A stretch of DNA of 64,000 nucleotides, taken from positions 7,480,006 through 7,544,005 of the forward strand of contig OZ024877.1 in NCBI GenBank assembly GCA_964017185.1. Reading direction: 5' to 3'. Below the pieces are notes generated by a model, which was not told where the DNA came from, searched no databases, and saw nothing but the letters and a program-made list of their open reading frames with translations. Every line of letters begins with the position of its first letter. Positions within the stretch are counted from its first letter, which is position 1. This stretch comes from Rugalucina vietnamica (taxonomy: Eukaryota > Mollusca > Bivalvia > Lucinida > Lucinidae). A program made the translations under genes and the position numbers. This document shows, one piece after another, positions 18,901-45,900 of the stretch.

Positions 18901-21900
18901 TTTCTTACTGTTTTTTACAGGTAAGGGAATTCACGGGCCAATCAACTCCTACTACAGTTTTTGATGGAACAATCTGATAGTATGCCTACATGATATACAC
19001 CCATTGGACATTTGCATGAAGAAGCATTATTGTGAAAAAATAATTTTTGACAAAATGACAGCTATAAGAACTCAGACAAATTATCTTAGATTTTTAGCTC
19101 ACCTGAGCCGTCAGGCTCACAAGGTGAGCTTATAGTATACCCATGCTCCGTCGTCCGTCCGTCCGTCCGTCCGCCCATCGTCCGTCCGTCGTCCACCATT
19201 TTCAAAGATCTTCTACTCTAAAACCGCTTGGCCAATCAAAGCCAAATTTTACATGAAGCATCTATGGGAAGGGGGAACCAATGTGTATATAAATAATCCA
19301 GGTCACATGACCAAGATGGCCGCCATGCCCATATATGGTAAAAACCCTTCAAAAATCTTCTTCTCCGGAACCACTGGACCGATTTCAACCAAACTTGGCA
19401 TGAAGCATTAATGGCTCAAGCACTACAATGTGTATATAAATCATGACCCTATGATGACCTTGACCTATTTTACGGCAAGGTCAACATAGGTCGCGAATGC
19501 ATTTGAATGGGAAAAATTGTTAAATTGTCATTTAAAGGAAAAATCTTGCAGAAAATGAGCAGTAGGACTGAATATTAATGATTCTGAAAAAACTTGGGCA
19601 CCAGGGGCTCATCCGCCCCCACCCCGGGGCAATATACATGTATATCTCCATAATATTCAAACATCTTCTCCTCTGAAACCGCTTGGCCAATCAAAGCGAA
19701 ATTTTATGTGAAGCATCAATAGGAAGGGGTAACAAATATGTATATAAAAAATCCAGGTCACATGACCAAGATGGCCGCCATGCCCATATATGGTAAAAAC
19801 CGTTCAAAAATCTTCTTCTCCAGAACCGGTTGACCGATTTCAACGATACTTGGCACGAAGCATCGATGGCTCAAGCACTACAATGTGTATATAAATCATG
19901 ACCCTGTGATGACCTTGACCTATTTTACGGGAAGGTCAACATAGGTCACCAATGCATTTGAATGGGGAAAACTTTTAAAATGTCATTTAAAGTGAAAGTC
20001 TTGCAGGAAATGGGCAGTAGGACTGGATATTAATGATTCTGAAAAAAATTGGACCCCAGGGGCTCATGTGCCCCCACCCCGGGGCAATATACATGTATAT
20101 TTCCATAATATTCAAACGTCTTCTCCTCTGAAACCGCTTGGCCAAACAAAGCCAAATTTTAAGTGAAGCATCTATAGAATGGGGGAATCAATGTGTATAT
20201 AAATAATCTAGGTCACATGACCAAGATGGCCGCCATGCCCATATATGGTAAAAACCCATCAAAAATCATCTTCTCTGAAACCAATAGACTGATTTCAAGG
20301 AAACTTGGCGTGAGGCATCGATGGCTAAAGTACTCCAATGTATATATAAATCATGACCCTGTGATGACCTTGACCAAGTTTATGGCAAGGTCAACATGGG
20401 TTGCCTGTGCATCTGAATTGGGAAAACTGTTAAAATGTCATTTGAAGGAAAAAGCCAACAGGAAATTGGCAAATGGACAGAATATTGAAGATTCTGAAAA
20501 AAGAAAATGGCCCAAGGGCTTATCTGCCCCTGCACTGGAGTTAAATACCATAATATTCAAACATGTTTATTGGTATATGCAGCTGATCTCAGGTGAGCGT
20601 TTACAGGACCATTGGTCCTCTGGTTACAGGTATGGGCATTTACGGGCCTATCAACTCTTACCACAGTTTTTGATCGAACAATTTGATATTATATCTATAT
20701 GATGCAGACCCATTGGACATTTGCATGAAGAAATATTATTGCGATAATTTTTTTTTTGACAAAATGATAGCTACGAGAACTTAGACAATTTACTTAGTTT
20801 TTTTTTTTTGTTTTTTTTTTTTTTTTTTTTTTTTTTTACAGGTAAGGGAATTCATGGGCCGATCAACTCCTACTACAGTTTTTGATGGAACAATTTGATA
20901 ATATGCCTACATGATATACACTCTTTGGACATTTGCATGAAGAAATATTATTGCGAAAAAATAATTTTTGACAAAATGACAGCTATAAGGACTTTATATA
21001 TAGACAATTTATCTTAGGTTTTTACAGGTAAGGGCATTTACGGGCCGATAAACTCCTACCACAATTTTTGATGGAACAATTTGATATTATACCTATATGA
21101 TGCAGACGGTAGACCCATCCGGCATTTGCATGAAGAAATGTTATTGCAAAAAAATAATGTTTGACAAAATGTTAGCTATGAGAACTTAGACAATTTTCTT
21201 AGTCTTTTTTTTTTATTGTCTTAGTTTTTTTTTTTTTTTTTTTTTTTACAGGTAAGGGCATTCACAGGCCGATCAACTCTTACTAAAGTTTTTGATGGAA
21301 CAATTTGGTATCATGCCTACGTGATGTACACCCATTGGATATTTGCATGGAGAAGTTTTATTGCGAATTTTTTTGTGATAAATGATTACAGGGCGGGGGC
21401 CCTGTCTCATGATAACCTCTGTGATCCTAGATTGTACTTACTTTAAGAACCTGATAAACAGTGTGATCCTAGATTGTACTTACTTTAAGAACCTGACAGG
21501 TTGTTCTCAGTCACACTGCCTGTCTCAGGATAACCAGTGTGATCCTAGATTGTACTTACTTTAAGAACATGACAGGTTGTTCTCAATCCCACTGCCTGTC
21601 TCAGGATAACCAGTGTGATCCTAGATTGTATTTACTTTAAGAACCTGACAGGTTGTTCTCAGTCACATTGCCTGTCTCAGGATGTGACCAGTGTGATCCT
21701 AGATTGTATTTACTTTAAGAACATGACAGGTTGTTCTCTGACAGTCACACTGCCTGTCTCAGGATAACCAGAATGATCCTAGATTGTACTTACTTTAAGA
21801 ACATGACAGGTTGTTCTCAGTCACACTGCCTGTCTCAGGATAACCAGTGTGATCCTAGATTGTACTTACTTTAAGAACATGACAGGTTGTTCTCAATCCC

Positions 21901-42900: not shown

Positions 42901-45900
42901 CTTGTACGTCAACTGTGACTGTGAGCTAGTATAGGCAATGCTGTCTTGAGTCATTTGAAACCTCACATCAGAGACTTGTATGTCAACTGTGACGGTGAGC
43001 TAGTATAGGCAATGCCGTCTTCAGTCATTTGAAACCTCACATCAAAGACTTGTATGTCAACTGTGATGGTGAGCTAGTATATATATATTCTTTATTTCCT
43101 CCATATAGGAGAGCACATAGCACATGATACATTCAAATACAATGTACAAAATTCAAACAAATAGGACAAAGCAAATAAACATAATAATAGAAAGACAAGT
43201 CATTTGAAACCTCACATCAGAGACTTGTATGTCAACTGTGACGGTGAGCTAGTATAGGCAATGCTGTCTTGAGTCATTTGAAACCTCACATCAGAGACTT
43301 GTATGTCAACAGTGACGGTGAGCTAGTATAGGCAATGCCGTCTTGAGTCATTTGAAACCTCACATCAAAGACTTGTATGTCAACTGTGACGGTGAGCTAG
43401 TATAGGCAATGCTGTCTTGAGTCATTTGAAACCTCACATCAGAGACTTGTGTGTCAACTGTGACGGTGAGCTAGTATAGGCAATGCCGTCTTGAGTCATT
43501 TGAAACCTCACATCAGAGACTTGTACATCAACTGTGACGGTGAGCTAGTATAGGCAATGCTGTCTTGAGTCATTTGAAACCTCACATCAGAGACTTGTAC
43601 GTCAACTGTGACGGTGAGCTAGTATAGGCAATGCTGTCTTGAGTCATTTGAAACCTCACATCAGAGACTTGTACGTCAACTGTGATGGTGAGCTAGCTAG
43701 TATAGGCAATGCTGTCTTGAGTCATTTGAAACATCACATCAGAGACTTGTATGTCAACTGTGACGGTGAGCTAGTATAGGCAATGCTGTCTTGAGTCATT
43801 TGAAACCTCACATCAGAGACTTGTACGTCAACTGTGACTGTGAGCTAGTATAGGCAATGCTGTCTTGAGTCATTTGAAACCTCACATCAGAGACTTGTAT
43901 GTCAACTGTGACGGTGAGCTAGTATAGGCAATGCCGTCTTCAGTCATTTGAAACCTCACATCAAAGACTTGTATGTCAACTGTGATGGTGAGCTAGTATA
44001 TATATATTCTTTATTTCCTCCATATAGGAGAGCACATAGCACATGATACATTCAAATACAATGTACAAAATTCAAACAAATAGGACAAAGCAAATAAACA
44101 TAATAATAGAAAGACAAGTCATTTGAAACCTCACATCAGAGACTTGTATGTCAACTGTGACGGTGAGCTAGTATAGGCAATGCTGTCTTGAGTCATTTGA
44201 AACCTCACATCAGAGACTTGTATGTCAACAGTGACGGTGAGCTAGTATAGGCAATGCCGTCTTGAGTCATTTGAAACCTCACATCAAAGACTTGTATGTC
44301 AACTGTGACGGTGAGCTAGTATAGGCAATGCTGTCTTGAGTCATTTGAAACCTCACATCAGAGACTTGTGTGTCAACTGTGACGGTGAGCTAGTATAGGC
44401 AATGCCGTCTTGAGTCATTTGAAACCTCACATCAGAGACTTGTACATCAACTGTGACGGTGAGCTAGTATAGGCAATGCTGTCTTGAGTCATTTGAAACC
44501 TCACATCAGAGACTTGTACGTCAACTGTGACGGTGAGCTAGTATAGGCAATGCTGTCTTGAGTCATTTGAAACCTCACATCAAAGACTTGTATGTCAACT
44601 GTGACGGTGAGCTAGTATAGGCAATGCCGTCTTGAGTCATTTGAAACCTCACATCAAAGACTTGTTTGTCAACTGTGACGGTGAGCTAGTATAGGCAATG
44701 CCGTCTTGAGTTATTTGAAACCTCACATCAGAGACTTGTACGTCAACTGTGACGGTGAGCTAGTATAGGCAATGCCGTCTTAAGTTATTTGAAACCTCAC
44801 ATCATAGAATGTATGTCAACAGTGATGGAGATTTAGTACAGGTTTTACTATCTATAGTCATACTGTGATATAGATCTTAAACTGACACCACAAGCCATAT
44901 GAAACCTCAGTGCTAGAGTATTTGCTCATTTCTACAGTAATGGAAATTGCAGAGTTACCTGTATGTTTTAGCCCATGAACAAAAAGCACTTTTTCTCATA
45001 TTTCCTATTTTTTTCTCCTTTTTTTCCAGGCTTATATCACAGAGAATGATGAGGGAAAGCAAGTGATAGGAAAAAGAAAATACAAGAGAGATGATAATAC
45101 ATGATATAGGGAAACCATGTAGTCATTCCAGACATTTGAGCCGTCTTGTGGGAAAACCAACAATGTGGTTTCCGAACAGGTCTGACACAAACCGGCCTGC
45201 ACAGTAACAGAAAAGAGCTAGAAGCTTGAAATTTCGGATTTAAGTAGAAGAGGAATTGTACTATACGAGTAGCGAAAACAAAGGTGCTGATCAGCTTCGC
45301 GGTAAAGCTGATCTGCGTCTTTGTTTTCGCCTATGCAGATTGTTGGTTTTCCCATGAGGCGGCTCATATATTTCATTTCAATGACAATTTCATAGAATTT
45401 ATGTTTAATAATTTGCATTTAACTTTTTTTAACAAATACGAGTCCCTTCTTCATGATAAGGTACTGTTTCAGCATAACGTCATATTTCTGTACCAAATAT
45501 TTTATGTATGTATCTAAAATATGCTAATGCTTACTGTAACATATGAGCCGCATCACGAGAAGACCTATCTTGGGGTTTCCGAACCATTCCAACCACAAAA
45601 TAAGCTGCTCTACAAAACTGAGCTGTGCAGTCACATAAGGCTAGAACCTTGAAACTTCAGATTAAGGAAGAGGAATTGTACTACTTTTGAATTGAAGGAG
45701 AAAAGGGACTGTACTACATGTGTAGCAAAATCAAAGGTGCAGTGACTGCACAGCTGGTCTGTGTCTTTGTTTTCGAATATGACAAAAGCAGATTTTCTCA
45801 TGATGCGGCTCATATGTGCCGCAACGCGAGAAAACCGGTCTTCAGGGTTTTCAACCAAGTCCGACACAAACCGGCCTGTACAGTCACAGAAGATGGCTAG

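Follow-up and report, generated by a model that had tools for sequence, protein, structure and literature searches.

Do exon edges give birth to tandem repeats? The question is raised by a stretch of 64,000 bp from the genome of the lucinid clam Rugalucina vietnamica (assembly GCA_964017185.1, contig OZ024877.1, positions 7,480,006 to 7,544,005 of the forward strand), referred to below as the window, in which the DUS2 gene and a smaller FABP-like gene nested in it carry four tandem arrays, each including a splice site of a living exon. As will be outlined, each of these arrays is probably an independent minisatellite that began as a microhomology-mediated tandem duplication across an exon edge. 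Such exon-edge duplications are frequent in this genome, and a modest preference of arrays for exon edges is plausible but not established.

Four arrays across exon edges

When all 15 placed exons of the two genes, each with 100 bp of flanking sequence, were compared with the window by blastn, tandem copies were found at four edges: the acceptors of DUS2 exons E6 and E8, the donor of DUS2 exon E9 and the donor of FABP-like exon 3 (Table 1). Repeat calls and reading of the individual copies agree with the blastn result that there are four tandem repeats, each containing a genuine splice site, as the initial annotation of this DNA had stated. Its counts were also largely correct: the 14 donor-bearing copies of 76 bp at E9, the five to six copies of about 150 bp at a DUS2 acceptor, here E6, and the duplicated DUS2 acceptor with a microsatellite, here E8, were all recovered; for the FABP-like array the more than 30 units stand, and the unit length is 74 bp rather than about 72 bp.

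Array 1 (E9) is made up of 12 full units of 76–80 bp, a 42-bp unit and, at its end, a truncated one, a full unit comprising about 17 bp of the end of E9 with the donor and about 59 bp of intron. In array 2 (E6) the steps are 148, 148, 159 and 159 bp, followed by a partial copy; the unit holds the first ~119 bp of E6 and ~29 bp of intron with the acceptor TTGTAG. Array 3 (E8) has a single extra copy at an offset of 93–95 bp, with an ATG/GAT microsatellite between the copies, and its unit combines the first ~57–66 bp of E8, acceptor included, with ~27–38 bp of intron. E8 itself encodes a methionine run (28873–28890, minus strand) that is shared with Mercenaria, and ATG repeats also form the intronic microsatellite. 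Array 4 (FABP-like exon 3) has a unit of 60 bp of exon end and 14 bp of intron. A 919-bp higher-order duplication contributes to its copy number and carries an insert of ~116 bp, which owing to this duplication is present twice (43082–43197 and 44001–44116). Donors were scored in 30 of its 33 copies, copies 11, 22 and 32 being left out because of the insert or as the last copy: 26 of the 30 read AG-GC across the exon-intron boundary and four keep GT, and copy 32, outside the 30, also has GT on reading. The middle copies are near-uniform and without donor, and those at both ends of the array resemble the exon.

The units thus extend ~17 to 119 bp into the exon and 14 to ~59 bp into the intron. 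They straddle the exon edges, contrary to the view that each array starts at a genuine exon boundary, and a duplication seeded at the splice site itself was rejected for this reason. That no array spans a complete exon had been seen correctly. A common cause for all four arrays finds no support in their units, which differ in length and in the side of the exon that they include, and no sequence in common among them was seen in a blastn comparison.

Short direct repeats bound the duplicated stretch in two of the four arrays. In the FABP-like gene this is a putative seeding repeat of 7 bp, AGTCATA, and in E8 it is the exon's own GATGATGATG together with the ATG run in the intron; neither is related to splice signals. 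The far ends of the E6 and E9 arrays are lost, and bounding repeats are unreadable there. The E6, E9 and FABP-like units have a dispersed fraction of 0.00 in the other loci fetched from the genome (see below), which represent a tiny share of it, and the E8 array is partly flagged as dispersed (0.64), probably via its microsatellite. Head-to-tail units of about 10–160 bp, by which a minisatellite is recognized, are present in the 74-, 76- and 148/159-bp arrays; E8 has only two copies.

The exon borders on which this anatomy depends are sound for DUS2, because the gene model is colinear with DUS2 from Mercenaria: the spliced protein shows 67% identity over 382 amino acids with a single one-residue gap and no insertion. 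The gene occupies the minus strand between ~48.6 and 15.7 kb of the window with 11 placed exons (E2 to E12; exon 1 and the 3' end of E12 are unplaced), GT-AG is found at the exon borders wherever both sides are readable, and the spliced exons form an open frame. The nearest relatives of the protein are those of venerid clams (65–67% identity). Neither these homologous DUS2 proteins nor the spliced DUS2 protein contains any array copy, and a coding use of array copies found no support for the four arrays.

The FABP-like gene (plus strand, 40.7–45.1 kb) lies antisense within the DUS2 intron between E2 and E3, so that the two genes do overlap, as had been noted. Its four exons have AG/GT borders and join to an open frame of 158 amino acids. 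No Pfam model matches the protein, and in the PDB there are weak matches to lipid-binding proteins (best E = 0.003). This similarity, together with a four-exon layout that we take to be typical of FABP genes, weakly suggests the name.

Table 1. Positions of the arrays and exons in the window (numbered from its first letter)
Feature	Position	Strand	Basis and remarks
Array 1: 76-bp unit, 14 donor-bearing copies, DUS2 E9 donor	21410..22418	-	repeat calls and copy reading
Array 2: 148/159-bp unit, ~5.4 copies, DUS2 E6 acceptor	30213..31035	-	repeat calls and copy reading
Array 3: two copies of ~95 bp, DUS2 E8 acceptor	28873..29079	-	repeat calls and copy reading
Array 4: 74-bp unit, 33 copies including the living exon, FABP-like exon 3 donor	42209..44855	+	repeat calls and copy reading
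AGTCATA (7 bp), putative direct repeat that seeded array 4; intronic, adjoining the last FABP-like unit	44856..44862	+	equals the exonic unit start, 42209-42215
DUS2 exon E2	48466..48557	-	spliced model; no array
DUS2 exon E3	38074..38117	-	spliced model; no array
DUS2 exon E4	37564..37672	-	spliced model; no array
DUS2 exon E5	36944..37009	-	spliced model; no array
DUS2 exon E6 (true exon)	30174..30331	-	spliced model and Mercenaria alignment
DUS2 exon E7	29347..29512	-	spliced model; no array
DUS2 exon E8 (true exon)	28817..28938	-	spliced model and Mercenaria alignment
DUS2 exon E9 (true exon), its donor end forming unit 1 of array 1	22402..22551	-	spliced model and Mercenaria alignment
DUS2 exon E10	17713..17800	-	spliced model; no array
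DUS2 exon E11	16481..16554	-	spliced model; no array
DUS2 exon E12 (3' end undefined)	15700..15929	-	spliced model; no array
FABP-like exon 1, from the first ATG (5' end uncertain)	40703..40805	+	joined frame; no array
FABP-like exon 2	41331..41515	+	joined frame; no array
FABP-like exon 3 (true exon)	42155..42268	+	joined frame
FABP-like exon 4, to the stop codon	45030..45106	+	joined frame; no array

Exon-edge arrays in kinesin and myosin genes

Within the DUS2/FABP span, four of 13 arrays (hand-merged from repeat calls, period above 30) contain an exon edge, as compared with 1.44 expected for randomly placed units (P = 0.043). The probability falls to 0.001 for the eight in-span arrays with a period below 160 and to about 1e-5 for the four arrays alone, both of which are post hoc choices. 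Clustering with the genome sample described below assigned 9 of 11 exon-free clusters in the span to dispersed families, for example with units of 455/465, 156 and 147 bp.

The 455/465-bp tandem units, which occupy positions 19201–20502, 22819–24654 and 31218–35276 of the window, are probably carried by a mobile element; the same period is found in dispersed arrays of several kinesin loci. The window also holds a Helitron-like element (56887–63629, minus strand) with Helitron_like_N, PIF1 helicase and DUF6570 domains, whose long open frames contain minisatellites of 63/114 bp and 30 bp, and non-LTR-like retrotransposon frames (3538–7118, plus strand) with endonuclease and reverse transcriptase domains.

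For a wider sample the genome (1.09 Gb, 47 contigs) was searched for kinesin motor exons, which were found at 133 places, and for myosin head exons, found at 91 places. The kinesin places gave 55 possible 10-kb windows, 23 of them with at least three places, and 20 of these were fetched (81 of the 133 places), together with five myosin windows hand-picked for dense exons (28 of the 91 places). It should be noted that array copies raise the place counts, most of all in locus L011; the arrayed windows also hold other exons. The exon set was completed by tblastn between sibling genes, which gave 91 non-overlapping hits; 44 of these were added by hand as fitting the domain order and not being array copies, some of them after the arrays had been seen. 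The 25 windows contain 71 tandem clusters, of which 40 were set aside as dispersed (two of these touch an exon), and the 31 others were treated as local arrays. An array was counted as containing an exon if it included at least 12 bp of it, and the null expectation was obtained by random placement of units in non-dispersed DNA.

The exon-edge anatomy of the four arrays described above is also seen among the kinesin and myosin arrays. The 17 local arrays with exon sequence overlap 15 of 139 placed exons, or 17 of 139 when the two dispersed-class arrays are added. One example is found in L011 (G000:C10:15530222-15540221, positions 2484–4688), where a kinesin exon is followed at its donor edge by tandem copies of 107 bp, 21 in all. 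Other arrays of exon copies are those of L012 (166 bp, ~6 copies), L015 (96 bp), L018 (105 bp) and L027 (99 bp). By eye, 2–4 bp of shared sequence are present at the unit ends in L011, L015, L018 and L027. In L035 (G000:C3:48472500-48482499, positions 233–542) two copies of a myosin exon segment lie 169 bp apart; they differ by 20 synonymous codons and one non-synonymous codon and are, judged by this ratio, probably two coding exons and perhaps alternative ones. In L012, L013, L018, L027, L030 and L031 most differences between the partial copies and the exon are synonymous; allelic variation or recurrent copying of the living exon might account for this. A polarity of growth, with the newest copies nearest the exon, was tried and rejected: in the eight arrays scored, out of nine, no consistent correlation was seen (rho −1.0 to 0.95).

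Origin of the arrays and competing readings

In the reading that we favour, on balance, each array would have begun with a tandem duplication of ~74–150 bp straddling an exon edge, with a short direct repeat at its ends where these are preserved, made by replication slippage or microhomology repair. The event would have been tolerated since it left one exon intact and one splice site working, presumably the first of the donors or the last of the acceptors. On the donor side the true exon would be the upstream copy, for which its own donor suffices; on the acceptor side it would be the downstream copy, and here the unit has to include an acceptor module. The lengths of the intron parts, as judged by eye, fit these needs: ~4 (L015), 13 (L011), 14 (FABP) and 59 bp (E9) in donor units versus ~18 (L012), 18 (L018), 29 (E6), 27–38 (E8) and 56 bp (L027) in acceptor units. 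The extra copies would have become intron and, except at E8, would have been amplified by ordinary slippage and unequal exchange, being themselves presumably neutral. The loss of most GT donors in the FABP-like array is as drift would allow.

Several observations do not sit easily with independent, neutral duplications. Coding exon sequence is contained in 17 of the 31 local arrays where 6.2 are expected (P = 1.2e-5), so that plain chance fails unless detection bias explains the excess, and the excess is also seen among arrays with at least 2.6 copies (7 of 15 versus 3.1, P = 0.019). Some sampled arrays share only 2 bp at their unit ends, and the far ends of the E6 and E9 arrays are gone. In L011, 20 of the 21 copies (counting the living exon) have an intact decoy donor GTAAGG, and the donor is within the three best-conserved of 101 unit windows, computed with the copies anchored away from the donor motif, which drift does not predict. 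Finally, between the nearest copies and the exon in 17 exon arrays, L035 left out, there are 87 synonymous and 58 non-synonymous codon differences, seemingly fewer non-synonymous ones than one would expect of decaying copies.

The excess at exons can be read in two ways, of which a bias of survival and detection comes close to an even chance. Arrays would then start at equal rates everywhere, and DNA next to exons would be sheltered by selection against insertions and deletions. By our reasoning, copies of an exon would also stay recognizable about twice as long as pairs of intron copies, because their counterpart is a constrained exon, from which they diverge at about half the rate. Indeed, in several older two-copy cases (~78–82% identity) the similarity is confined wholly or largely to exon sequence, and dispersed repeats are less common in the 50 bp next to exons (19%) than at greater distances (30–46%). 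The excess peaks among two-copy arrays (10 of 16 versus 3.1) and is smaller among multi-copy ones, which are less affected by a bias toward detecting exon copies. When the null probabilities were doubled as a crude correction for this advantage, most of the significance disappeared (P = 0.08 overall without L035, 0.43 for multi-copy and 0.04 for two-copy arrays). It speaks against such a bias that young arrays, with a maximal identity of at least 90%, keep the excess (6 of 12 versus 2.2, P = 0.011) and that local tandem coverage of introns does not climb toward exons, being 6–9% at all distances.

The other way is to regard exon edges as preferred birthplaces of tandem duplications, for instance through nucleosome- or transcription-linked stalling of replication, with exon-edge minisatellites as a distinct class. 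This we regard as possible, though rather doubtful. It is in line with an excess in both gene families (kinesin 12 of 24 versus 4.3, myosin 5 of 7 versus 1.9), among all 71 clusters with the dispersed ones included (19 versus 10.7, P = 0.007) and at a maximal identity of at least 85% (9 of 17 versus 3.2); since 3 of the 14 exon-free local arrays lie within 100 bp of an exon (no formal test), the excess seems confined to units with exon sequence in them. It has to be set against a coverage-shift test in the 20 kinesin windows, in which covered edges were no more frequent than expected, whichever of five identity cut-offs was used (at least 75%: 10 of 134 edges versus 9.9); this test is blunt in that a long array covers much sequence yet only one exon edge. 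The sample is also small, with nearly half of its tblastn exons added by hand, and the unit ends lie away from the splice sites. The earlier proposal that splice-junction DNA is a preferred start is supported in that exon-edge arrays recur in other genes and fails in that the ends are not at the junction; a preference as such is no more than plausible. Were it real, it would account for the roughly one in nine sampled exons that are overlapped by an array with the living exon as a unit, and the genome would contain undescribed exon-anchored minisatellites with decoy sites, in some cases (L011) maybe under selection; we hold this extended claim to be no less tentative.

That the copies are functional, as decoy or alternative splice sites or as mutually exclusive exons under selection, is unlikely. 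The splice dinucleotides are intact in 47 of 53 scored copies, or in 50 of 53 after three L018 copies shifted by one base had been read, but the scoring needs similarity at the edge and omitted diverged copies: it included no E9 copies, three FABP-like copies and none from five other arrays. Conservation of the L011 donor and the two L035 copies, with differences as for two coding exons, argue for function at these loci; against it stand the mostly lost GT of the FABP-like array and the E9 donor, which is not specially conserved (rank 52 of 70), so that selection on decoy donors is suggested by L011 alone and not by E9. Moreover, most of the copies examined are partial exons, several with in-frame stops (e.g., L011, L015), and multiples of three are not over-represented among the periods of the 17 exon arrays (4 of 17). 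For the four arrays of the window mutually exclusive exons were rejected, their units being partial exon copies with one splice site each. An assembly artefact, finally, is very improbable: the copies differ by several percent and have private indels, the genome was assembled as 47 long contigs, and the pattern recurs at many separate loci.

Significance and relation to known systems

If it is true that exon edges seed arrays, a DNA process would be linked to gene architecture, and genes would be constantly provided with duplicated splice sites from which new exons, new introns and also mis-splicing could arise. The question of where minisatellites start could then be tested directly in a single annotated genome. 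Without such a preference, too, the runs of intact decoy sites next to constitutive exons offer natural experiments on the choice among identical splice sites.

No class of exon-edge or splice-junction minisatellites was found described in the open-licence literature searched, which is weak evidence of absence and agrees with the initial annotation, which knew of no splice-junction satellite class. In one model, minisatellites arise between short direct repeats. The clam arrays resemble them in their units of tens to ~160 bp, imperfect copies, higher-order duplication and, in the FABP-like gene and E8, end repeats; to our knowledge, an anchoring exon that acts as a unit has not been described for ordinary minisatellites. 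In mutually exclusive tandem exon duplications exon sequence is copied beside the exon, which L035 may resemble, whereas the four arrays copy only part of an exon. Introner elements are intron-sized and occur in many genes; the four clam units do not match each other and three of them are without a match in the fetched loci, to which this comparison is limited.

Precedents also come from intron gain. Tandem duplication of AGGT-bearing exon segments is a recognized route to new introns (PMC3443670; PMC2891723, the latter with cases from Drosophila), and as in the clam it is exonic sequence together with splice motifs that is tandemly duplicated. As described there, however, these duplications sit inside coding exons and create introns, whereas in the clam an existing exon edge is amplified in the adjoining intron. 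Another case is the RdRp gene of potato, in which a tandem duplication over an intron-exon boundary created an intron (Ma, Lan and Niu, 2016; PMC4974935). There, too, the copied stretch extends from the 3' part of the intron across the acceptor into the beginning of the exon, and the splice signals are inherited with it. The potato gene has two copies, and the duplicate became a spliced intron and exon; the clam has up to 33 copies, which are intronic and give no sign of reaching the mRNA. No described class having been found for them, the exon-edge-anchored minisatellites of R. vietnamica can be regarded as a variant that goes beyond these two-copy precedents.

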